In this document: piece by piece, positions 20,380 through 30,036 of the stretch
Position numbering within the stretch: position 1 is the stretch's first letter
Layout of the letters: each line of letters starts with the position of its first letter
IMG/VR virus record: IMGVR_UViG_3300013132_000169
Location: 1-30,811 of that record
Direction: 5' to 3' (one strand)
From: a virus
DNA: 30,811 nucleotides
The notes under the pieces: model-generated
What the model was told of the DNA's origin: nothing
What the model saw: only the letters and a program-made list of their open reading frames with translations
Databases searched by the model: none
Made by a program: the position numbers and the translations under genes

Positions 20380-21312
20380 TCAAATGATAGTATCGGTTAA
20401 TTTTTCAGTTGAAAACAGATTATAAAACGCAATAAAGTTTTCGCTAGAACACCCAATATTAAGCCTAAACGTACCTTCTGGTCCACACAAAGATCTACCA
20501 TCAAGTCCAACAATCTTTTTTGGACATTCGCCTTCTGCCCAAAGAAACATCCCTGACATATTCAAAATTTTAAACGGTAGTTTGTGTCTAATATTATTTA
20601 TTAGATCATGACGATCTTGTAGCGTTCTTCTTCCGTCTTCAAATACGGTGTGATTGGCGTTCAATTGGCTATTTAAAATTACATCTGCGGCAATTTGAGC
20701 ATCAACAGAAAGACCGCTTGTGCTGTATTCAATCTGTTGTTCTAGTGCTCGTGCAATCATCTCGTCCTTAATTATCGCCCACCCAATCCGGGTACTAGCG
20801 TGTCCCGTCGCTTTGCTTAACGAAAACACCATGATTGGAAAATCATATTGCTTTACTTTTTTAACATATTGAGGCCAATTATACGTTAAATCCAATATGT
20901 CTGTTTTTTTATGCAAAATAGATGAGCCATCGGGATTATTAGGGATAGTGGTAATCAGAATTGAATTCTGTTTCTTTTCCCAGTTTAATCCAGCGTAATC
21001 TGCTAATTTAGGAAATCGAGAGAAATGCGGAGGAGTTGCCCAAGCACATCCCGCTCCTGTTTCTTTCTTTAATACGTGCAATAAACCAAGGATAAGCTGA
21101 GTAGCGCCAGCGCCAATAACAATATGTTTTCCATCTACCACCGCATTTTTTTCTTGGTTATGAATTGCATGAATTGTGTTTTTCAAAAACAACTTAGACC
21201 CAAAATGATAAGACATGTCTTTATCAATAGAACGAGTTGATTTAAGGCGCACGCTTTCCCAATAAGGAATTAAAAACGCGGGAGAACCCCAGGACATATC
21301 AATCTTGTTCAT
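20380..21312 (-). CDS. PLP-dependent aminotransferase, alliinase / Trp-aminotransferase-like
   Basis: 310 residues, fold type I. TTIPNNPDGS (N125, P127, G129) and LDLTYNWP (D141, Y144) bind the cofactor. FSLSKATGHASTRIGWA carries the Schiff-base lysine K167 and phosphate-contacting R175. GTFRLNIGCS carries R283 for the substrate carboxylate. The SKATGHA-TRIGWA form is typical of alliinase_C and tryptophan aminotransferase-related enzymes, not of aspartate aminotransferases. It is shorter than those (about 350-390), lacking N-terminal extensions, but all key residues are there. It overlaps the gene at 21299-21934 by 14 nt, suggesting joint function. Substrate unknown. Confidence 0.82.
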   Translation of the reverse strand: MNKIDMSWGSPAFLIPYWESVRLKSTRSIDKDMSYHFGSKLFLKNTIHAIHNQEKNAVVDGKHIVIGAGATQLILGLLHVLKKETGAGCAWATPPHFSRFPKLADYAGLNWEKKQNSILITTIPNNPDGSSILHKKTDILDLTYNWPQYVKKVKQYDFPIMVFSLSKATGHASTRIGWAIIKDEMIARALEQQIEYSTSGLSVDAQIAADVILNSQLNANHTVFEDGRRTLQDRHDLINNIRHKLPFKILNMSGMFLWAEGECPKKIVGLDGRSLCGPEGTFRLNIGCSSENFIAFYNLFSTEKLTDTII

Positions 21313-21934
21313 TGCGATTTACTCCATACATATAACTAGAATCATGCCCAACGGTCCATTTGTTACCGTCTTCACAGCCCCATTCTACAGTGTTTACTTT
21401 GTATCCTATCTTAACAGATTCATCCGGTTTTGTTAACGAAGCGTCTTTAAAAATAATTCGATTTTGAGGATAAATAGCAAAACATCCGTTTTTCATCTTT
21501 AAAAAGTGAAAACACTTCCATTCGTTTGGACTTTCAGCAATCCCAATATAACTGGTTTGATTTGAAAAATCTACTGAAAAAAGATATTCAGCGTCATATG
21601 TTTTTTTATTACGAAGAAGTATATTACAAGCCATTCCCTTTAAAAAATCAATTTGGAAAACAGAATGGTCATAAGAAAGAGAGTCCCACATTTCAAGATC
21701 GCCCAATTCAAACTTAGGGGCATCGATTTTATGGCACAAAGAATGAATTGGCAGTCCGGTAAACAATACCCCATTTTCTAATAATACATAAAAAGTTACA
21801 GCTAATCCTTTAACCGTTCTAATCGCTACAATCCACCCTTTTGTAAATTCTCCAAATCCCTCTTCTTGATTGTGTAAAAATTCATTTCTTACAAGAACAG
21901 GAATAGACGGACATGAGCTGGATATATTAGCCAT
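21299..21934 (-). CDS. Uncharacterised protein paired with the aminotransferase
   Basis: 211 residues, MANISSSCPSIPVLVRNEFL onward, rich in aromatic residues and beta-strand patterns: GWIVAIRTVKGLAVTFYVLL, ENGVLFTGLPIHSLCH, SYIGIAESPNEWKCFHFLKM, CFAIYPQNRIIF. The distinct pattern of conserved-looking Cys, His, Trp and Pro suggests a real, folded family. I cannot name it. It is translationally coupled to the aminotransferase (14-nt overlap) and follows the metallopeptidase by one base, so all three are one transcript. Confidence 0.7.
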   Translation of the reverse strand: MANISSSCPSIPVLVRNEFLHNQEEGFGEFTKGWIVAIRTVKGLAVTFYVLLENGVLFTGLPIHSLCHKIDAPKFELGDLEMWDSLSYDHSVFQIDFLKGMACNILLRNKKTYDAEYLFSVDFSNQTSYIGIAESPNEWKCFHFLKMKNGCFAIYPQNRIIFKDASLTKPDESVKIGYKVNTVEWGCEDGNKWTVGHDSSYMYGVNRNEQD

Positions 21935-21935
21935 A

Positions 21936-22385
21936 TTAACTACATTTGTTTTTCAAGTATTCATTGGTTTGTTTTTTAAATTCTTTTTCCGAAATGGGTT
22001 CAAAAAACTCGGCCATAAAATGTTTTGTATCAGGTAAATGTCTCTGATCAAACATACAATGCACCATTTCGTGCATCATCACTTGTTTTCTGTCTTCTTT
22101 AGTTAAAACCTTATCCCAATAGACTTGATCAAACACAATAACAAATCCGTTAACTTTTCTTTGGCAATAAGCAATCTCTTCCAAAAGAGGCGCGAATTTA
22201 ATCACAACAAACGGTTTTGGATAATAATACTCACCTTTGTCACAAGCTGTTTCTATACTAACAAGATTCTCATTAAATACTTGATTCAGCTCTTTGTTTC
22301 TATAAGGAATCAAAACAAACAAAACATTTAAGTTATACAAAATACAAGAAATCAGAACGAGCCTAATAACATTAATTGCTTTCAT
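21936..22385 (-). CDS. Membrane-anchored zinc metallopeptidase
   Basis: 149 residues. An N-terminal membrane span or signal anchor (INVIRLVLISCILYNLNVLFVLI) is followed by a soluble domain with MMHEMVHCMFDQRH, an HExxHxxxxxxH zinc site (H105, E106, H109, H116), and KHFMAEFF, a possible Met-turn. This resembles small metzincin-like proteases. Cys residues at 48, 74, 110 and 148 fit an exported domain with disulfides. It might trim envelope proteins during infection or exclude other phages; substrate unknown. It overlaps the zinc-finger gene by 14 nt. Confidence 0.7.
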   Translation of the reverse strand: MKAINVIRLVLISCILYNLNVLFVLIPYRNKELNQVFNENLVSIETACDKGEYYYPKPFVVIKFAPLLEEIAYCQRKVNGFVIVFDQVYWDKVLTKEDRKQVMMHEMVHCMFDQRHLPDTKHFMAEFFEPISEKEFKKQTNEYLKNKCS

Positions 22386-22599
22386 TTTTCAAAGCTCGTT
22401 TTGCTCTTTGTCTTTCAGCACAACGTTTACGATGACATTCTGGACAGACGTGTCCGTTCCAATATCCGTCACCGTTTACGCCTTTCCACTTCTTGTCCTT
22501 TTTATTAAACTTACCCTTTAATACACGATATTTTAATACACCGCATACCTTACATATTTTAGCCTGTTTTTCATTTAAAACAAGTGGTTTATTTGACAT
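22372..22599 (-). CDS. Small zinc-finger protein
   Basis: 75 residues with two Cys pairs, CKVC (16-19) and CPEC (52-55), enclosing a Lys/Trp/Gly-rich loop, then a basic helix (RKRCAERQRAKRALKNE). This is like the DNA-binding part of HNH proteins without the nuclease core. It could be a stand-alone zinc ribbon that binds nucleic acid or a remnant of a homing endonuclease. Confidence 0.65.
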   Translation of the reverse strand: MSNKPLVLNEKQAKICKVCGVLKYRVLKGKFNKKDKKWKGVNGDGYWNGHVCPECHRKRCAERQRAKRALKNESN

Positions 22600-22601
22600 T
22601 T

Positions 22602-22829
22602 CTATAACCTGCGCCTTTTAAAAGGTTTAAAGCAAATCTTATCCAAAACAGCATCATCTGACTCCCCATCAGAAAAAAACCCAGACCTACTACCATGCAA
22701 TCGTTTCAATTCCAGTAAAAAAATTTTTGAAACATCAGCAGCAAATCCAGGGTCTGTTAACTTATCTTCCCTCTTTGATAGGTGATAATCGTCATCATTC
22801 AACCAAAATAATCGATTGTTAAGAGACAT
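22602..22829 (-). CDS. Hypothetical protein
   Basis: 75 residues: MSLNNRLFWLNDDDYHLSKR, an acidic middle SGFFSDGESDDAVLDK and a basic end KPFKRRRL. No recognised motif. Its start overlaps the neighbour's stop by one base and the gap to the next gene is two bases, which supports translation within the run 23038-20380. Confidence 0.55.
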   Translation of the reverse strand: MSLNNRLFWLNDDDYHLSKREDKLTDPGFAADVSKIFLLELKRLHGSRSGFFSDGESDDAVLDKICFKPFKRRRL

Positions 22830-23038
22830 TAATAATTCTCCTCATCCGCCCGTTCACCGGCTATTGCGTAACATGTACGACATTCAAGCTCGTTTTTAGC
22901 ATTATACACCCATTCATGAGCCTCTTCCAGGTCCGTACAAGAGATTAATTTACCCCTACGAATTTTTTTTTCATCAATTTCTTTTGTTGCAAGCCCAATT
23001 ACAACCAAAAATAATCCTAATATCAAAAGCAAATCCAT
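22829..23038 (-). CDS. Small membrane protein with CxxC
   Basis: 69 residues. An N-terminal span MDLLLILGLFLVVIGLA is followed by KEIDEKKIRRGK and a soluble tail with three cysteines (CTDLEEAHEWV, CRTC). No Shine-Dalgarno of strength is seen. It is the first gene of the accessory operon that runs to 20380. Confidence 0.6.
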   Translation of the reverse strand: MDLLLILGLFLVVIGLATKEIDEKKIRRGKLISCTDLEEAHEWVYNAKNELECRTCYAIAGERADEENY

Positions 23039-23040
23039 AA

Positions 23041-23254
23041 CTTACCCTACTTATCCACACAATTGTTAAGAAATCTACCCCGTTAACAACTATTGTTATC
23101 AACGTATTTCCCTGATAGCAGACAATAAGTCTGCGGGGTATGAGAGAGATAACCCGTGGGACACGTGTATCCGGTTCCCTGCCCCGAAAAAACCATACCG
23201 TAATCCCCATACGTTGTATGTATGGTGATACGTTGTATCATACAGACGTATACG
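23041..23254. promoter_or_regulatory. Regulatory gap with paired 13-bp palindromes and a hairpin
   Basis: This 214-bp space holds CATACGTTGTATG (23208-23220) and GATACGTTGTATC (23227-23239), two 13-bp palindromes 19 bp apart centre to centre, which look like repressor operators. A 6-bp hairpin GCAGAC/GTCTGC lies at 23118-23134. TTAACAACTATTGTTATC at 23082-23099 is a degraded plus-strand copy of the phage promoter motif. I see no convincing gene here. Confidence 0.5.
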
Positions 23255-23794
23255 CTATGTATAGCTTCCAAGTCTTTGTATTTCATATTGTTCCAAATAG
23301 GACTTGGTAAGCTCATTATTTGCGTATTGCGGTATAATGTATTCTTTATCCTTAAACGTATTCTCAATCCACTGATTGGCTAGACCTAGATTACGGAATA
23401 CGCCAATCACGTATCCTTTATTCCTCGTATTTACAGCCTTGACGATCACTCTAGCGTAATCGTCGTATTCGACCCGTAAACGGTATTTAACCGCATTCGG
23501 TTTAGAGTATAGGCCATACCCCTTAGCCACATATTGATCTACCCAATAGCGTGTCCTTACGCCAAGGGCATCGGATTTCTGTACAACCTCTAGCACTTCG
23601 AACCTGAGCTTATCCCGGTCGATTATAAGATTGAGACAGTTATGAGTCTTATCTTGTAACTGACGTATTAGCTTTCCTAATGACTCAACGACACAAGACG
23701 AATGGGTGACATAGACGCATCTGTCTTGGTCGTTTATAAGGGCAATTACAGCCTTCTGAGGTAGCTTTAGGAGCTGAGATAAATCGAGTTCCAT
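23255..23794 (-). CDS. GIY-YIG-like phage protein (degenerate)
   Basis: 179 residues. The N-terminus, MELDLSQLLKLPQKAVIALI, RCVYVTHSSCVVESLGKLIR, LNLIIDRDKLRFEVLEVV, follows the layout of a GIY-YIG fold (strand, strand, helix, strand), but the usual GIY, YIG and catalytic Arg are not preserved, so nuclease activity is doubtful. The C-terminal half (KYRLRVEYDDYARVIVKAVN, GYVIGVFRNLGLANQWIE) is a separate alpha/beta segment. It is the first minus-strand gene left of the control region. The promoter motif TTTTAACAACTATATAC touches the ATG, so translation is probably leaderless. Its job may be regulatory. Confidence 0.6.
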   Translation of the reverse strand: MELDLSQLLKLPQKAVIALINDQDRCVYVTHSSCVVESLGKLIRQLQDKTHNCLNLIIDRDKLRFEVLEVVQKSDALGVRTRYWVDQYVAKGYGLYSKPNAVKYRLRVEYDDYARVIVKAVNTRNKGYVIGVFRNLGLANQWIENTFKDKEYIIPQYANNELTKSYLEQYEIQRLGSYT

Positions 23795-23832
23795 GTATAT
23801 AGTTGTTAAAAGTTTCTATATATAGTTAACAG
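23792..23832 (-). promoter_or_regulatory. Phage promoter motif, copy H, directly at the ATG, with a second partial copy
   Basis: The minus strand reads TTTTAACAACTATATACATG, ATG being the start of the 179-residue gene. About 20 bp upstream TGTTAACTATATATAG (23832-23817) is a second, shortened version. There is no room for a Shine-Dalgarno. Confidence 0.6.
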
Positions 23833-24011
23833 TGTATTAAATTGTTAAGGTGGGTTAACCACAGGTCGTGAAATCGCATATATAGCTTATCACAGAATAC
23901 TGTGTTTCTATAGTTTAATACCCTAAGAATTTGCGTGTTGGCTAAGCCATAGCTCTCGATCGCTGCGAAGCTGCCCCCCCCCCTACCTTTATATGTCAGC
24001 AATCTCCCCCT
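23833..24011. other. Leftward leader region, no gene seen
   Basis: Stretch between the leftward -24/-12 element and the 23794 start. It contains the hairpin CACAG-TATT-CTGTG (minus strand), a run of ten C at 23973-23983 and several TTAAC words. Reading frames here show no codon or start support. Confidence 0.4.
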
Positions 24012-24179
24012 TGCAAGAATCATGCCACTCGGAACTTGGCACACATCTTGCAGGGCACACATCTTGCAGGGCACGGATCTTGCTATTGCAATATCTATGC
24101 CAGGGCTTGGCACCGATGTCGTTACATTATAGCGTGTTACTGGCTGGCACGGAGTTTGCATGTTGGCATGGACCTTGCA
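24012..24179. promoter_or_regulatory. Array of sigma-54-like (-24/-12) promoter elements on both strands
   Basis: Sixteen-mers with GG and GC exactly 12 apart. Plus strand: TGGCACACATCTTGCA (24037), GGGCACACATCTTGCA (24053), GGGCACGGATCTTGCT (24069), TGGCACGGAGTTTGCA (24145), TGGCATGGACCTTGCA (24164), and weaker TGGCACCGATGTCGTT (24108). Minus strand: TGGCATGATTCTTGCA (24027-24012) and TGGCATAGATATTGCA (24102-24087). The first three lie at 16-bp steps. Minus and plus elements form two back-to-back pairs. Consensus known for sigma-54: TGGCACG-N4-TTGCW. Confidence 0.6.
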
Positions 24180-24347
24180 TTATTTTCCATCATTACACTA
24201 GGCACAAGGCTGTTAACATTTTCAAACATTGCTAAATGCCTGTTAAGATTATTAAATACCTGTTAAACCTGTCGAACTTTTTGACAGTTGTCAAGTTCTT
24301 AGACACCTCTCAATGGGTCTGGGCCTTGATTTTATTGGGTTTTTCGT
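24180..24347. promoter_or_regulatory. AT-rich spacer with CTGTTAA repeats and a TTGACA palindrome
   Basis: CTGTTAA occurs at 24210, 24240 and 24260. The palindrome TTGACA-GT-TGTCAA lies at 24281-24294, and with flanking GAAC/GTTC (24274-24298) it can form a longer arm with a T bulge. The block may hold operator, activator or origin-type sites between the two groups of -24/-12 elements. No gene is supported. Confidence 0.4.
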
Positions 24348-24363
24348 TGGCACGGCGCTGGCA
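24348..24363 (+). promoter_or_regulatory. Sigma-54-like element before the structured RNA
   Basis: TGGCACGGCGCTGGCA keeps the invariant GG and GC at 12-bp spacing, with one change in the -12 box (TGGC for TTGC). Initiation about 12 nt after the GC would fall near 24374, just before the folded region. Confidence 0.45.
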
Positions 24364-24373
24364 ATTACCTCCC

Positions 24374-24903
24374 TCGACGGCGGCAAAAAGGACCGCTAGG
24401 ATTGCAGGATTCTACATAACTGGCACTCGCGTCATTAAAACTATGGCGCGAGGGTACGAGTAACCCACACGATTCTTCCTCAGTATGAGGTTTGAGCGCG
24501 GCGATTCTCCTAAGTTATCAGGGGATAGCCATAGGCGCGAATTACTGCCCACGTATGGGTGGGGATGGTTGTGACAGGGCTCGCTAAGCAAGCGCGACTC
24601 GCAAGAGAACCGCTTTGACGCCACGCCAGTGGTATTCCGGCAACCTATGGGAGCATAGGTTGAAGCTACAGGAACCGAGTAGCAGGAATACGTGTGCCAA
24701 AGGTAAGACGGTAAATCCGCCTCGCAAGGGGATCTATCCGCGCCAGTAGGGTAGGTGTAGCTGCTAGAAACACGTAAAGCGTGTAGAGCAACGCGCAGCC
24801 TACCGAAAACGCGGTGTGATAAGGGGAGAAGTCCGATTTATTACCTTGGGGAATTTTGTTTGAAATTGGGAGCGCTGGCTAAATGTCGGCGCTCCCCTTT
24901 TTT
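24374..24903 (+). ncRNA. Large structured non-coding RNA candidate (about 530 nt)
   Basis: No frame of quality exists here, base composition is more GC-rich than around it, and many helices can be written. They include CTCGCG/CGCGAG (24426/24447), CCTC/GAGG (24478/24487), CCCAC/GTGGG (24548/24559), CCAC-GCCA-GTGG (24621-24632), a perfect 9-bp stem with GGAG loop (24641-24662), and a three-part arm GGTAG/CTACC, GCTGC/GCAGC, ACACG/CGTGT (24750-24804). It ends at an intrinsic terminator. It does not look like tmRNA, RNase P RNA or a group I intron core. Size and complexity recall phage-associated ornate RNAs such as GOLLD or ROOL, without a match I can claim. Its 5' end is inferred. Confidence 0.6.
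24868..24903 (+). terminator. Intrinsic terminator of the structured RNA
   Basis: GGGAGCGC (24868-24875) pairs perfectly with GCGCTCCC (24889-24896) around a 13-nt loop, followed by a C and six T. It defines plus-strand direction for the RNA upstream and separates it from the gene at 24981. Confidence 0.92.
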
Positions 24904-24980
24904 ATTCCAAAAGCCGCGCCATTAAAGTTTGCTGTGTGTCATATCGGCGCACGGTAATGTCCCAAACAAAAGGAGATACC

Positions 24981-25232
24981 ATGTCTAAGTCTGTTACCGA
25001 ATTGCAAGCAGAACTCGCAGCGGCATTGGAAGCAGTCAAGGCTCTAAAAGCCGAGATCGGTCGCCCACTCACGTTCAAGAAAACTGACAAGGGCGGAGTG
25101 TCAATCTATGGACTTCAGCGTTTTCCTGTCACGCTTTACCCTAATCAATGGAAGCGCGTCATGGATAACGCGCAAGCTCTGTCAGACTTCATTGCCAAGA
25201 ATTGCCCCGAGTCTGAAGACAAAGCGGCGTAA
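24981..25232 (+). CDS. Small conserved phage protein
   Basis: 83 residues. The ATG at 24981 follows AGGAGATACC, so it is preferred to the in-frame ATGs at 24936 and 24957. A short N-terminal coiled coil (ELQAELAAALEAVKALKAEI) leads to LTFKKTDKGGVSIYGLQRFP then VTLYPNQWKRVM. The KGGVS.YGL.RFPVTLY..QW motif recurs in small proteins of phages and proteobacteria whose function is unknown. It is the first gene of the right arm, 78 nt after the RNA terminator. Confidence 0.75.
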   Translation: MSKSVTELQAELAAALEAVKALKAEIGRPLTFKKTDKGGVSIYGLQRFPVTLYPNQWKRVMDNAQALSDFIAKNCPESEDKAA

Positions 25233-25269
25233 CGCAAGCCAAATGCGTCCCGCGCGCGCAATCCAAAAA

Positions 25270-25305
25270 TTGGGGGGGAGTGTGTTTTATGCACGCTCTC
25301 CCCAA
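25270..25305 (+). promoter_or_regulatory. Long hairpin in the gap before 25337
   Basis: TTGGGG with GGAGTGTG pairs with CACGCTC and CCCCAA around TTTTATG. It is followed by CTCTATTTTG, not a clean T run, so it may be a weak terminator, an attenuator or an mRNA-stabilising hairpin. The 104-bp gap holds no other feature apart from the ribosome binding site of the next gene. Confidence 0.5.
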
Positions 25306-25336
25306 CTCTATTTTGCCTCTCAGGAGAAGGCGTCTT

Positions 25337-25576
25337 ATGAAAAACTATCGCATCCGTACCAAGGCAGGAGTGTACGCTGGTAATAACTTCAAAATGAACC
25401 GCTACGGAGAACTCCGTCCTGCGGGTTTTGCCCCGACCACAAGCAAAATGTTTGCCAGAGTGTATTCGGAAACCGATCACTTCCAAATTCGAGCCGATGT
25501 CATCCGGCTGGCACAATTTGTGCAGGAATCCGTGGAAGGATTCTCGCTGGAAGAAGTGTCGGAAGAAGTAGCATAA
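25337..25576 (+). CDS. Hypothetical protein
   Basis: 79 residues from ATG 25337, chosen for its CAGGAGAAGG ribosome binding site; a longer frame from 25280 has none. It reads MKNYRIRTKAGVYAGNNFKM, SKMFARVYSETDHFQIRADV and ends acidic (SLEEVSEEVA). A small alpha/beta protein of about this size; no family recognised. Confidence 0.65.
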   Translation: MKNYRIRTKAGVYAGNNFKMNRYGELRPAGFAPTTSKMFARVYSETDHFQIRADVIRLAQFVQESVEGFSLEEVSEEVA

Positions 25577-25660
25577 GCACCAGCGCGTAACCCGCGCACC
25601 GTGTGAGAGCCGAGCGAGGAAGTGTCGGCCTAAAATTTTAACCCAGCCAAGGAGAGCCCC

Positions 25661-25771
25661 ATGAATACTCAACCCGTCCCGTCTATCCACGAGTGTGAAG
25701 TTATTCTAGTCTGTTTCAAAACCAAGCGAGTGATCGCACGCCGCAAGGTTGTAACCGAGAAGGCGGTGTGA
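25661..25771 (+). CDS. Hypothetical 36-residue protein
   Basis: ATG 25661 follows AAGGAGAGCCCC, a strong ribosome binding site. It reads MNTQPVPSIHECEVILVCFK and TKRVIARRKVVTEKAV, then TGA one base before the next ATG (TGATATG). The tight spacing and ribosome site support a real gene. No function can be given. Confidence 0.55.
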   Translation: MNTQPVPSIHECEVILVCFKTKRVIARRKVVTEKAV

Positions 25772-25772
25772 T

Positions 25773-25961
25773 ATGAGTAAAAAAGTCATCCGTTATTTAG
25801 AATCAGAAGCAGCTCGACTATTTGAGGGAGAGGAGTTTGACGAAGCGGCGAGGGGTTATTACGCTCATCTAAATGATGTGATCTTGGATCTCGAAGCTGG
25901 CAGGATAACTGTGAAACAAGCATCCGAAAGTCTAGGCATTAACCTACAGGAGGCAACATGA
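25773..25961 (+). CDS. Hypothetical protein, 62 residues
   Basis: MSKKVIRYLESEAARLFEGE, EFDEAARGYYAHLNDVILDL, AGRITVKQASESLGINLQ. It is helical and acidic. ITVKQASESLGI resembles a short helix-turn-helix, so an Xis-like or transcription-related role is possible but weakly supported. It overlaps the amidoligase start by four bases. Confidence 0.65.
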   Translation: MSKKVIRYLESEAARLFEGEEFDEAARGYYAHLNDVILDLEAGRITVKQASESLGINLQEAT

Positions 25962-27190
25962 AATTCAAGTTGTTTAATTCTTTCAGGAAAGTTATTATAC
26001 TTTCTGAATCCGGGTATACTCTGGAGCCTTGCTCACGCCAATCGTTTAAAATGTATCAGCGAGCGCGGCGTGCGCTGAGTGTTGTATATGCCGATTTGAA
26101 GCATAAAGAAAGGTCGTTGTTTGCTTATAGCGATATGAACTATGCAAGACAGCGGGTTTCTGAATTTAGAAAACAACACCTTCAGGGCGGTACCGTTACT
26201 GTTATATATGAGGCGACCGTTGTTCCGTTCCCTGGTTATGCAGCGCAGCGGATTACGGCATACGATTTGCGTAGCCTTTGTCGTAAGCGACGAGAAGTTA
26301 TTGCAAACGCACGCCAAGTGCGCCGACAATTACGCGAACGACGCCCTGTTAGGCGAAGCCGTGCGTATGGTAATGGGTTTCATCATGAGATTGTCATCCC
26401 ACTTGTGGGAGGGGTACACACCTCGCCGGGATTCTTTCTTCAGCTGAGACAATCCCGGTTGAGTAGGCTTGTGTATGAAAACAAATACCCGAAGACTAAC
26501 GAACATCACCTTGGTTTAGAACTTGAATTCACTGCCAAAGCCGATCAGACTCGCCTTGGCACCGCGTTGTTTGAAGCCGACGTTGCTGAGTTTGTAACAC
26601 TCAAGAGTGACGGTTCGATTCGCGTCGAAAAAGAAGGACACTATGCACATGAGCTTGTAATCTGCGTCGCACAATCAATGGTTGAATCTGTAACTAAGAA
26701 AGTGACGGAGGTCTTGTCGAAGTTTGAAGCATCAGTCAATAAGTCAACGGGTTTTCATGTTCATATCGACGTAAGAAGCCGCGACCGACGTAAGGTATTC
26801 GGTAGGCTTGTTGCGGCGCAAAGTTTGCTGTATGCTATGCAACCAGCGTCACGTCGCAACAACACCTACGCAAAGCGTACCTCATCCCGCGATATGTACG
26901 TGGCAGGAAGTGCTGGTAGGTATCAAGGAATCAATCCCAAATCTTATGACAAACACACCACAGTGGAAGTGAGGCTCCACGCTGGTACTGTATCGTTTGA
27001 GAAGATCGTTAATTGGTGTAGGCTACTTGTTGCTATTACCGAAGGGGAAAGCGTGCTCCCGCCACGTGCCCCAAGAAAGCTTGACTCTTTCTGCAAGACG
27101 TTTGGTATCGGTGGCGAGCTGCGCGACTATATCAAAGCAAGGCTTGACAAGTTTGCCAACGTATCCGATGATCAAACTGAAACTGCTTAA
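25958..27190 (+). CDS. Amidoligase family enzyme (COOH-NH2 ligase type)
   Basis: 410 residues. Residues 1-180 are a basic, helix-rich N-terminal region with no name. The domain from about 183 has HHLGLELEF (metal/ATP-binding E188, E190), SDGSIRVEKEGHYAHELV, STGFHVHIDV (H267, H269, D271) and, after a gap, RYQGINPKSY with TVEVRLHAGT (E337, R339). These are the signature motifs of the amidoligase_2 group, which joins carboxyl and amino groups using ATP. Ribosome site AGGAGG. The next gene encodes a glutamine amidotransferase, the partner that typically supplies ammonia. Confidence 0.85.
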   Translation: MKFKLFNSFRKVIILSESGYTLEPCSRQSFKMYQRARRALSVVYADLKHKERSLFAYSDMNYARQRVSEFRKQHLQGGTVTVIYEATVVPFPGYAAQRITAYDLRSLCRKRREVIANARQVRRQLRERRPVRRSRAYGNGFHHEIVIPLVGGVHTSPGFFLQLRQSRLSRLVYENKYPKTNEHHLGLELEFTAKADQTRLGTALFEADVAEFVTLKSDGSIRVEKEGHYAHELVICVAQSMVESVTKKVTEVLSKFEASVNKSTGFHVHIDVRSRDRRKVFGRLVAAQSLLYAMQPASRRNNTYAKRTSSRDMYVAGSAGRYQGINPKSYDKHTTVEVRLHAGTVSFEKIVNWCRLLVAITEGESVLPPRAPRKLDSFCKTFGIGGELRDYIKARLDKFANVSDDQTETA

Positions 27191-27212
27191 CTAAACGAAA
27201 GGACTATACAAT

Positions 27213-28184
27213 ATGTGTAAAGTAATGATGATGGCTGGTATTACTAACGAAACCCGTGACGCCGCATGGCGATTTATTAAGGAGATGGCAAAGGAGATTA
27301 GCCCTGGTAATATGGACGGATGCGGTTACTCTGCTATGTCTGCCGATGGTAGCATCTTTGGTGAGCGCTGGCACATTAACTCAGAAGCGTTTGTCAATCG
27401 TGACCTTGCCCCACCTATCTCTGACTTCGAGGGTAGCTTGCTTGAAACTTTCCGTGGTGCAATCAAACGCAAAGAAGCTCCCGTAAAGTATTCTAAGTTC
27501 GGCTCCCTACAGTTTGACTCGATGACAGCCATCACTCTGCACACTCGGTTTGCTACAAGCGGTAAGGAGTTTATGAACACGCATCCGTTTGTCGTGGGTA
27601 ACACTTCGCTTATTCACAACGGCGTAATTAGTAACGCAAAAACTCTTGAAATGAAACAATCGACTTGCGACTCTGAAACTATCCTTAATCTGTATGTCAA
27701 GCATCAGGTTGCTAATAAGCCTGAGGCAATCCAGCGCGTGGCCGACAAGCTGCAAGGTTACTACGCTTGCGGTGTGCTCACTAAGTCTAAGTCTAACGGT
27801 CTTGTGCTCGACGTATTCAAGTGTGACTCTGCTAACTTAACAGCTGCATATGTCAAGGAGCTTGGCACAATGGTATTCTCAACCAGCGTCAACGATATCA
27901 AGTCGGTCTGCACTAAGCTTGGGTTTACTGTGGTACACGATTTTCTCTTTGACAAAGACACGCTGCTCCGGCTTGATGCTATTGACGGTAGTGTGATTGA
28001 CTGTATTAAGTTTGTGTCAAGCGCTCCAATTGATGTTCGGTCGTTTCGTTCTAGCAAAAAGAAAAACAGGTTGCCCAGCGAACCTATCAGTGCTAAGAGT
28101 CCTGTGATGCGAAGCTGGACGGAGGAGGTTAACGTTGATCAAGATTGGTTGTATCAAGGTAATTGGTGGGAAAGAAAAGAATAG
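27213..28184 (+). CDS. Class II glutamine amidotransferase
   Basis: 323 residues. The nucleophile Cys2 follows the initiator Met (MCKVMMMAGI). LHTRFATSG (109-117), NTHPF (122-126), LIHNGVISN (134-141) and CDSETIL (152-158) are the class II glutaminase motifs for glutamine binding and the oxyanion hole. There is no asparagine synthase or phosphoribosyltransferase domain; the C-terminal 120 residues (DIKSVCTKLGFTVVHDFLFD, IKFVSS, basic end) are not recognised. Paired with the amidoligase 23 bp upstream. It would release ammonia or act as a transferase for amide formation on a small molecule, peptide or wall component. Confidence 0.88.
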   Translation: MCKVMMMAGITNETRDAAWRFIKEMAKEISPGNMDGCGYSAMSADGSIFGERWHINSEAFVNRDLAPPISDFEGSLLETFRGAIKRKEAPVKYSKFGSLQFDSMTAITLHTRFATSGKEFMNTHPFVVGNTSLIHNGVISNAKTLEMKQSTCDSETILNLYVKHQVANKPEAIQRVADKLQGYYACGVLTKSKSNGLVLDVFKCDSANLTAAYVKELGTMVFSTSVNDIKSVCTKLGFTVVHDFLFDKDTLLRLDAIDGSVIDCIKFVSSAPIDVRSFRSSKKKNRLPSEPISAKSPVMRSWTEEVNVDQDWLYQGNWWERKE

Positions 28185-28244
28185 AACTTTATAATAACCA
28201 AAAGAAAACAGTGTGAACAAATAAATCATTTTAAAGAGGCTATA

Positions 28245-28544
28245 ATGCAGATTATTCGTAATGGTCCCCTACAGGACCTAGTAGACAAGATCCTGGACCA
28301 ACATGGCGAGAAGGATAGGGTAACAGAAGATTTGATAGGAATACTTGAGACCCATGCTTGGCTGTCTGATCCCGACCGACCCGTCCATGACGTTTTTGAA
28401 TCAGGACTGATGGCGGGAAAGGAAGCGGGCGCGGTTGTACATTGGCTACAGATATATGACTTCCGTTTCTATTACACGGATAGGAAGCCCGAGAGCATAC
28501 AAAAAGACCTTCAGCGATTCATTGAACTACTCGATCGAGATTGA
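28245..28544 (+). CDS. Hypothetical protein, 99 residues
   Basis: MQIIRNGPLQDLVDKILDQH, GEKDRVTEDLIGILETHAWL, acidic and helical, ending ESIQKDLQRFIELLDRD. AGAG-type ribosome site before ATG 28245. No family recognised. The 60-bp gap before it is AT-rich with a TATAATAA word but no good -35. Confidence 0.65.
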   Translation: MQIIRNGPLQDLVDKILDQHGEKDRVTEDLIGILETHAWLSDPDRPVHDVFESGLMAGKEAGAVVHWLQIYDFRFYYTDRKPESIQKDLQRFIELLDRD

Positions 28545-28612
28545 AGACCAGGAATGGTCCCAAAGTTTTTGAAAAAAAATTGTCGGAGTCGGAATTTGAT
28601 AAAGCCTTTCGA

Positions 28613-28641
28613 TTGACGCTTGTTGCGTTGTTTGGAAAATA
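28613..28641 (+). promoter_or_regulatory. Possible sigma-70 promoter
   Basis: TTGACG (28613), 17 bases, AAAATA (28636) just ahead of the gene at 28656. One mismatch in the -35 box, two in the -10. It lies in the only sizeable gap (111 bp) in this part of the right arm. Confidence 0.35.
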
Positions 28642-28655
28642 AGAGGGAGAAAAAG

Positions 28656-28901
28656 ATGCGTAAGGAAATAACTGTAACCATAAACAATAGAGAAGTAACT
28701 CTAGACGTTTACGCTAAAACTTATTACGATCCGTGCTATGGCGCGGATGCTGACGGCAATCGTGGGATTGGGTGTTGGTTCATTGACGATATAACTTGGG
28801 ACACCCCAGAAGCAGACGACAACGGTAATCTTTTAAACGAAGAGGAAAAAAAGAAATTAAACGAATTGATTAACGCAAAGACTGATGATATTGATTTCTA
28901 A
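28656..28901 (+). CDS. Hypothetical acidic protein, 81 residues
   Basis: ATG 28656 after AGAGGGAGAAAA. It reads MRKEITVTINNREVTLDVYA, YGADADGNRGIGCWFIDD and a strongly acidic, Lys-spaced tail. The first 20 residues look like a small beta-hairpin. Very acidic small phage proteins often mimic DNA or bind host enzymes, but nothing specific can be shown here. Confidence 0.6.
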   Translation: MRKEITVTINNREVTLDVYAKTYYDPCYGADADGNRGIGCWFIDDITWDTPEADDNGNLLNEEEKKKLNELINAKTDDIDF

Positions 28902-28912
28902 AGGAGATCACA

Positions 28913-29302
28913 ATGCACAACGTAACTGAACGGGTTTATATTTTTAGTGTGTTTAATTCGCAGCGCAACGCAGCAGCTAACGCCGTCGAGCATAGTGAAA
29001 CAATCGGCAGCCTAAAGGCAAAGCACTATGCCCCGACTGAAGTGGAAGGACGATACAACGGAATTGAAGAAAAGTCGATCATGCTTTACGGTACTAACCT
29101 GACCGAGCCCATGATTGACGAACTTGCAAAGCGTAACTTTCAGGAGAGTTACTTAGTTATCTATCATGACGGAGTAGCAGAATTGGTTTACAGTAACGGC
29201 AATCGTAAAATCTTAGGAGATTTTGTTTCAGTAAGTGAAGAAAAAGCAAAGTCAAAAGATGCATACAGCAAAATCGGCAATCAATGGTTTGTAATTGAAT
29301 AA
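28913..29302 (+). CDS. Hypothetical protein, 129 residues
   Basis: MHNVTERVYIFSVFNSQRNA, SLKAKHYAPTEVEGRYNGIE, EKSIMLYGTNLTEPMIDELA, QESYLVIYHDGVAELVYSNG. A mixed alpha/beta sequence with a clear AAAGGAG ribosome site. No family recognised. It lies 11 bp before the DUF932 gene and shares its transcript. Confidence 0.65.
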   Translation: MHNVTERVYIFSVFNSQRNAAANAVEHSETIGSLKAKHYAPTEVEGRYNGIEEKSIMLYGTNLTEPMIDELAKRNFQESYLVIYHDGVAELVYSNGNRKILGDFVSVSEEKAKSKDAYSKIGNQWFVIE

Positions 29303-29313
29303 AGGAGAATAAC

Positions 29314-30036
29314 ATGAACATCACTACACTTGACACTAAGCACACATCACGAAGCGAACGTTATAAAGTTGTTCCGACTAAAGAGATTGCTGCAAAGTTT
29401 AAGGAGCTGGGATTTGTTGTTGATAATTATCAGGAAGCAAGGGTGCGTAAGGATCTTACGAGACTCGGACACCAGAAGCATCTTGTGCGCCTCTCGCATC
29501 CCGAGCTTCTTGCCACCGATCACAGTGACGTTAAGCTTCAGCTTCTTGTCACTAATTCGCACGATGGATCTAGTTCATTTAAAATGCAGCTCGGGTTCTT
29601 TCGGTTTGTTTGCTCTAACGGATTGATTGTTGGAGAAACTTTTGAAACTATCAGGTTGAGACATAGCGGCACTATCCTTGAAGAAATCGATGGAGCAATT
29701 GAGCGGATGGTGGCTCAAACTAAAAAGCTTGATGCTTCAATCACTTCTCTCAAACAAAAGAAACTCGATGAATCTAGTGTGAGATCTTTTATTGAAGAAG
29801 CAGTAAAGCTGCGCGGTGTGTCTCATGTTAACATCACGCCGCGTCGTGAGGAAGATGCAGATTTTAGCAATCTCTTCCAGCTTTACAACGCGGTACAGGA
29901 AACACTGGTAAATGGCGGAAGCGAATACACTAACGCATTGGGTCGCCGTAGAGTAATGCGTAGCGTTAGTAATATTAACAAGCTAACCGAGATCAATGAA
30001 CAACTCTTTGATCTTGCAATGAGGTATGCAGCATGA
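29314..30036 (+). CDS. DUF932-type phage/plasmid protein
   Basis: 240 residues. The central pattern LQLLVTNSHDGSSSFKMQLG, FFRFVCSNGLIVGETFETIR, LRHSG is characteristic of the DUF932 (phage/plasmid-like) family, and a helical region follows (GAIERMVAQTKKLDASITSL, KQKKLDESSVRSFIEEAVKL). Members of this family are usually about 250-350 residues, so this is near the short end. Function is unknown; these genes tend to sit in early or accessory regions of phages and plasmids. Overlaps the next start (ATGA). Confidence 0.82.
   Translation: MNITTLDTKHTSRSERYKVVPTKEIAAKFKELGFVVDNYQEARVRKDLTRLGHQKHLVRLSHPELLATDHSDVKLQLLVTNSHDGSSSFKMQLGFFRFVCSNGLIVGETFETIRLRHSGTILEEIDGAIERMVAQTKKLDASITSLKQKKLDESSVRSFIEEAVKLRGVSHVNITPRREEDADFSNLFQLYNAVQETLVNGGSEYTNALGRRRVMRSVSNINKLTEINEQLFDLAMRYAA

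Follow-up and report, generated by a model that had tools for sequence, protein, structure and literature searches.

An array of sigma-54-type sites between the late and early genes of a freshwater phage, with comparable arrays in unrelated phages

Organization of the divergent control region

The window, by which we mean the whole stretch of viral DNA that was analyzed (30,811 nucleotides), comes from a record that is a 30.8-kb fragment, with relatives as long as 82-89 kb. The features of its control region, from which a leftward (late) and a rightward block of genes run apart, are collected in Table 1. The product of the first late gene was modeled by AlphaFold2 with a pLDDT of 83, and Foldseek matched it to the catalytic domain of I-TevI (E 7e-4). 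This gene adjoins a poly-C tract, a run of 7-12 C that is found in the same place in nearly all relatives, even those without sigma-54 sites. The tract is a conserved element independent of the array; several contigs terminate near it, and it possibly marks a site of packaging or a DNA end. Positions 20380-30036 of the window also carry auxiliary genes, which include an alliinase-type aminotransferase, an amidoligase, a class II glutamine amidotransferase, an S-adenosylmethionine lyase and a DUF932 gene.

Table 1. Features of the control region of the window and of its flanks. Scores are those of the matrix derived from E. coli sites.
Feature	Position	Strand	Matrix score	Remarks
First leftward (late) gene, 179 aa	23255-23794	-		GIY-YIG-like N-terminal fold
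Poly-C tract, consensus TACCCCCCCCCT	23974-23987			Late-side border of the array
Leftward sigma-54-type site TGGCATGATTCTTGCA	24012-24027	-	20.4	Exceeds the 95th percentile of the E. coli sites
Rightward sigma-54-type site TGGCACACATCTTGCA	24037-24052	+	20.2	First of three at 16-bp steps
Rightward sigma-54-type site GGGCACACATCTTGCA	24053-24068	+	14.4	Moderate
Rightward sigma-54-type site GGGCACGGATCTTGCT	24069-24084	+	13.6	Moderate; face-to-face with 24087(-)
Leftward sigma-54-type site TGGCATAGATATTGCA	24087-24102	-	19.4
Rightward sigma-54-type site TGGCACGGAGTTTGCA	24145-24160	+	18.4	Full consensus
Rightward sigma-54-type site TGGCATGGACCTTGCA	24164-24179	+	17.7
Right-hand site TGGCACGGCGCTGGCA	24348-24363	+	10.8	Weak by score; predicted start near 24373-24374
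Structured non-coding RNA, ~530 nt	24374-24905	+		Fold z -4.35
Intrinsic terminator of the ~530-nt RNA	24868-24905	+		Strong; stem kept with compensatory changes in L092
First rightward open frame	24981-25232	+		Ribosome site AAGGAG

No gene lies between the site at 24348 and position 24981, and this interval holds the structured RNA of about 530 nt. A homologue of the RNA is found in a related contig (L092 3640-4250, minus strand; z -8.96), and compensatory changes distinguish the two RNAs in their hairpins as well as in the terminator. No Rfam family matches the RNA, and a search for further carriers among 22 contigs with its core yielded only L092, which was already known. The RNA is probably the first rightward transcript of the window phage, for which there are no transcript data.

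The initial annotation of this DNA had described eight 16-mers, six on the plus strand and two on the minus strand, as clustered sigma-54-like promoters. All eight are present where they were placed, with GG and GC 12 apart in each, and they fit TGGCAYR-N4-TTGCW at this spacing; only the one at 24145 matches the full consensus. We scored the window with a first sigma-54 matrix written from general knowledge and with a second one built from 42 intergenic, sense-oriented E. coli sigma-54 sites reported in a ChIP-seq study (PMC4591121). The first matrix placed 8 of its 12 hits inside the 24012-24363 cluster, and the reversed motif formed no cluster. With the second matrix, under which the 42 E. 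coli sites themselves score 12.5, 14.7, 16.0, 18.1 and 18.9 at their 5, 25, 50, 75 and 95% quantiles, five cluster sites exceed the E. coli median, two are moderate and one, that at 24348, is low. The weight-matrix scoring that the annotation had proposed thus upholds the count of eight, but not its grading as seven strong sites and one weaker one.

When up to two mismatches are allowed, the window contains 13 matches compared with 4.5 ± 1.9 expected, 8 of the 13 are concentrated in 352 bp, and none of 100 shuffles reached 13. The cluster is denser than the rest of the window, but the sites are not confined to it. The remaining 30.4 kb hold 3-4 comparable hits, and by the E. coli-derived matrix good sites are found at 25442(-), 25508(+) and 1614(+), with scores of 17.5, 18.1 and 15.5, the first two as a pair within an open reading frame. 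Three tandem sites do follow one another at 16-bp steps, but they abut rather than overlap. Likewise, only one of two pairs that had been described as back-to-back is so arranged, 24012(-)/24037(+); in the other, 24069(+)/24087(-), the elements face each other, their -12 ends separated by 2 bp. The site at 24012(-) is the closest to the late block, its predicted start lies near 24001, and it has a counterpart at the same place in the relative L091 and in others. No strong outward sigma-70 promoter (TTGACA-16/18-TATAAT) is present in the control region of the window.

Resemblance to bacterial sigma-54 promoters

Column frequencies of the sites in the phage family correlate with those of the E. 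coli sites at r=0.956 overall and at 0.86 on the columns that were not used for site selection, and none of 10,000 column permutations matched E. coli as well as the observed columns did. The spacing is strict, with GGCA-N7-TGC occurring 53 times and the N6 and N8 variants not at all. The two halves of the element also differ from one another. Sixteen control regions from the family contain 64 GCA-N7-TGC sites. In 60 of these, one half is preceded by G and the other by A or T; no site has G ahead of both halves, where exchangeable halves would give, by our own arithmetic, about 14 such sites. An ordinary operator for a dimer is excluded because of this strict spacing and these asymmetric halves. 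An unsupervised motif search with the poly-C tract masked recovered the same element. Judged by these comparisons, the array elements are very likely sigma-54 sites, with the binding of RpoN itself remaining an inference from sequence.

The narK RNA family (RF03032) was considered as a candidate at 24070-24122 and rejected, with a score of 18.9 bits against a gathering score of 43.2. The weak hit arises because the family starts with a -24/-12-like element: its consensus begins GGCaCAgcucUUGCU. The RF03032 family may itself contain a sigma-54 promoter.

In most members of the family a further single site immediately precedes the early block, some 350-430 bp rightward of the poly-C tract. In the window, the member of this conserved class of single right-hand promoters is 24348(+), which deviates from the consensus at -13. 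The right-hand site precedes early genes in the relatives and the structured RNA in the window phage. In several genomes it is followed by a ribosome site and an ATG, or an ATG lies at the predicted start. In four cases (31179, 31747 and the right-hand site of G023 contig C22, and the right-hand site of G019), the predicted +1 lies 1-2 nt before a frame-opening ATG, and these sites possibly give leaderless phage mRNAs.

We also computed the mean folding energy of 14 leaders that follow such sites in 26-nt windows, which has its minimum exactly at the predicted +1 (-5.6 compared with about -1.5 downstream). A predicted 5' stem-loop at this position argues that transcripts start there, indirectly and without 5'-end data. 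Of 93 hits that lie elsewhere than in the hotspots, 11 fall between genes and a short distance ahead of a gene on the same strand, compared with 0 of 30 for the reversed-motif control. Right-hand and isolated sites thus lie at promoter distance before a gene or RNA, which is not shown for each site of the array. It is quite likely that at least the right-hand type of site is a working promoter, its transcription being inferred.

Distribution among related and unrelated phages

A search with the portal protein found 104 related stretches in IMG/VR, and we retained 80 of them. A hotspot at the point where late and early genes diverge is retained in relatives down to about 55-60% portal identity, with 3-8 sites in most of the sampled records, and it lies between the late and early blocks wherever both flanks are visible. 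L091 has an identical order of sites with altered spacer bases. In an 86-kb relative (G003), two blocks of about 43 kb both begin at the hotspot, the rightward one extending to 43.5 kb and the leftward one from 85.8 down to 43.5 kb, and in another (G007) six sites alternate between the plus and minus strands about every 20 bp. By our count, 45 of the 60 oriented sites in the control regions point toward the early side and 15 toward the late side.

No hotspot was found in the relatives G004, G005, G008, G010 and G011. The last of these (seen as L092) has late genes that are 97% identical to those of L091, and its control region diverges from that of L091 starting 49 nt beyond the leftward site, with TGTGTC/GACACA palindromes in place of the array (L092 3900-4860). 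It follows that either the switch is modular and G011 presents a natural promoter swap, or the contig is recombinant or chimeric. A search at the DNA level for relatives of the phage returned nothing. The closest isolate is a Silvanigrella phage with about 30% identity, in whose sequenced part no array was found.

The array finding is real, and it is larger than the initial annotation had recognized. We searched viral contigs more widely for two consensus sites within 30 bp and obtained matches in at least 120 stretches, where we estimate fewer than one by chance; many of these are arrays of 5-11 sites. At least eight unrelated groups of uncultured phages carry comparable arrays (4 to 22 sites), and whole-record protein comparison finds only 0-4 proteins in common between groups. 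One record of 147,530 bases (G039) contains 59 sites compared with 5 for the control, with 22 of them within 600 bp, and its locus L199 has 46 sigma-54-type sites in 6.5 kb where the control has none. The gaps between sites are not random, being mostly 10-13 bp for tandem sites, 1-6 bp for face-to-face sites and mostly 6-10 bp for back-to-back sites. In a marine group (L190, L200, L212, L225, L270 and others), the arrays are flanked by outward sigma-70 promoters (43 observed, 14.6 expected) and adjoin an AT-hook, terS-like gene; flanking promoters of this kind were not found in the window's family. A match in the T1-like coliphage ADB-2 proved on inspection to contain no sigma-54 sites and was discarded as chance, and MW202554 (Manatee Spring) has no array.

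Since the array-bearing groups share almost no proteins, the reader of the sites should be a host protein that is common to many bacteria, and on this comparative evidence it is most likely host RpoN. The annotation had suggested looking for an enhancer-binding AAA+ activator or an RpoN homologue encoded by the phage. That search came back empty in the relatives and in 36 other array phages, many of them fragments: no Sigma54_activat domain was detected in 20-21 family records or in the 36 others, and the RpoN DNA-binding domain (Sigma54_DBD) was found in 0 of 21 and 0 of 36, respectively. No activator site common to the whole family was seen. A T7-type polymerase was not found either, but the positive control also went undetected, so its absence is not shown.

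RpoN is encoded in all five genome bins that contain related phage contigs, compared with 4 of 14 control genomes at the same threshold, with the caveat that bin assignment can be wrong. Portal homology was detected in 2 of 369 Bdellovibrionota and 1 of 399 Pseudomonadota genomes, counts that include the centre genome and are too few to decide the host. One portal relative in a Bdellovibrionota bin (L308, G270:C4:33229-35112) has seven in-frame TAG codons, which suggests stop-codon reassignment in that phage.

A proposed sigma-54 switch, its alternatives and known systems

The sigma-54 reading of the initial annotation is supported by the match to mapped sites, the spacing, the asymmetry, the conserved place, the promoter geometry and the 5' stem-loop, while binding and transcription are inferred. 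We consider it probable that the array is the main sigma-54-driven divergent switch of this freshwater phage. On this reading, the binding of RpoN, the transcription itself, the involvement of a host activator and the part played by each direction are all inferred. Host E-sigma-54 (RpoN) would form closed complexes at the sites after infection, and their opening would fall to an AAA+ activator of the host (the phages themselves yielded none). Rightward sites, chiefly the right-hand one at 24348, would start the early block, whose first product in the window phage would be the non-coding RNA, and leftward sites would drive the late block, in which the GIY-YIG-like gene comes first. Additional copies may raise local occupancy and allow firing in either direction.

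Several points speak against such a switch. There are no transcript data for the region, the phages yielded no activator, the DNA that should melt beyond the leftmost leftward site contains a G-rich tract, the site at 24348 deviates from the consensus at -13, the array is absent from some relatives, and the marine group has its flanking sigma-70 promoters. In addition, sigma-54 closed complexes have a footprint of about 30 bp, from which we infer that a polymerase on one site would keep others from being bound at the same time where tandem sites lie 16-19 bp apart or -12 ends are face-to-face. The copies might instead mainly park or withdraw host sigma-54 polymerase, thereby suppressing the sigma-54 responses of the host or keeping polymerase close to other promoters, with only the isolated right-hand site acting as a working promoter. 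Promoter function would not require arrays this dense (22 sites within 600 bp in G039, 46 over 6.5 kb in L199), and both their non-random packing, with tandem gaps of 10-13 bp and face-to-face gaps of 1-6 bp, and the excess of outward sigma-70 promoters beside the marine arrays would suit this role. We nevertheless think it unlikely, although it stays in contention: the window's family lacks those flanking promoters, its isolated sites resemble working promoters, and with three to eight sites in each copy of the phage genome the sink would be modest. The remark in the annotation that tandem copies may titrate the factor cannot be excluded, and it gains weight from other phages, which reach up to 22 sites within 600 bp.

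The arrays also resemble operator or packaging-site arrays, and a phage-encoded repressor, terminase subunit or replication protein could read them, the likeness to sigma-54 sites being convergence or mimicry. The terS-like gene with an AT-hook next to the marine arrays and the conserved poly-C tract bordering the array in the window's family are compatible with such a reader. We regard it as improbable, given that the same 16-bp motif recurs in unrelated groups with almost no common proteins, that no RpoN-type DNA-binding domain was found in 57 records, and that the agreement with E. coli extends to weakly conserved columns. A palindromic operator for a dimeric repressor would account for the symmetric GCA-N7-TGC core that the unsupervised search recovered, but it is contradicted by the asymmetry of 60 of the 64 sites and by the lack of any G..G site where about 14 are expected, and we give it next to no credence. 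Chance or a functionless expansion of a simple repeat is just as hard to sustain; three copies at exact 16-bp steps could reflect tandem duplication, but the shuffles (0 of 100), the unclustered reversed motif and above all conservation across diverged genomes with changed spacers contradict it.

The common view is that lytic phages transcribe their first genes with sigma-70 or with a polymerase of their own. If the array is a sigma-54-driven switch, infection would require RpoN together with an activator signal, which would couple phage growth to host physiology. It would also account for an arrangement seen repeatedly in uncultured phages and give it a searchable sequence signature, and natural arrays of such density would serve the study of sigma-54 binding and closed-complex poising. 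Many phages probably tie gene expression to host sigma-54 in this way. Only tentatively, and with somewhat more doubt than belief, do we extend this to a widespread and repeatedly evolved device by which unrelated aquatic phages would put early/late switching under the control of host sigma-54 polymerase that waits in poised closed complexes, with a host activator that senses nutrients, envelope state or motility gating the infection.

The sites share with the RpoN -24/-12 promoters of E. coli the same 16-bp element and its strict spacing, as well as Y then R after GGCA, T before TGC, and A or T at the end (PMC4591121). Bacterial sigma-54 sites are as a rule single and have a known activator, whereas the phage arrays comprise from three to more than 20 sites on both strands with no activator encoded. 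A putative sigma-54-like protein has been described in Pectobacterium phage Q19 on the basis of weak structural likeness (HHpred 94%, E 0.67; PMC7693777). That report also suggests phage engagement of sigma-54, through a protein, whereas the window phage has DNA sites and no RpoN-like protein. In the open-licence literature, which leaves most subscription journals outside, we found no description of a phage whose main switch depends on sigma-54. Lambda-like and other divergent phage control regions likewise have two blocks that run apart from one intergenic region. To our knowledge, transcription from those known regions relies on sigma-70 promoters or on sigma factors or polymerases of the phage, and not on sigma-54 arrays. 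The iteron, cosB and operator arrays of phages and plasmids are likewise repeated short sites in one region. Such arrays are recognized by a protein that the element itself encodes and vary from one unrelated element to another; unlike them, the sigma-54-type motif is common to unrelated phages.
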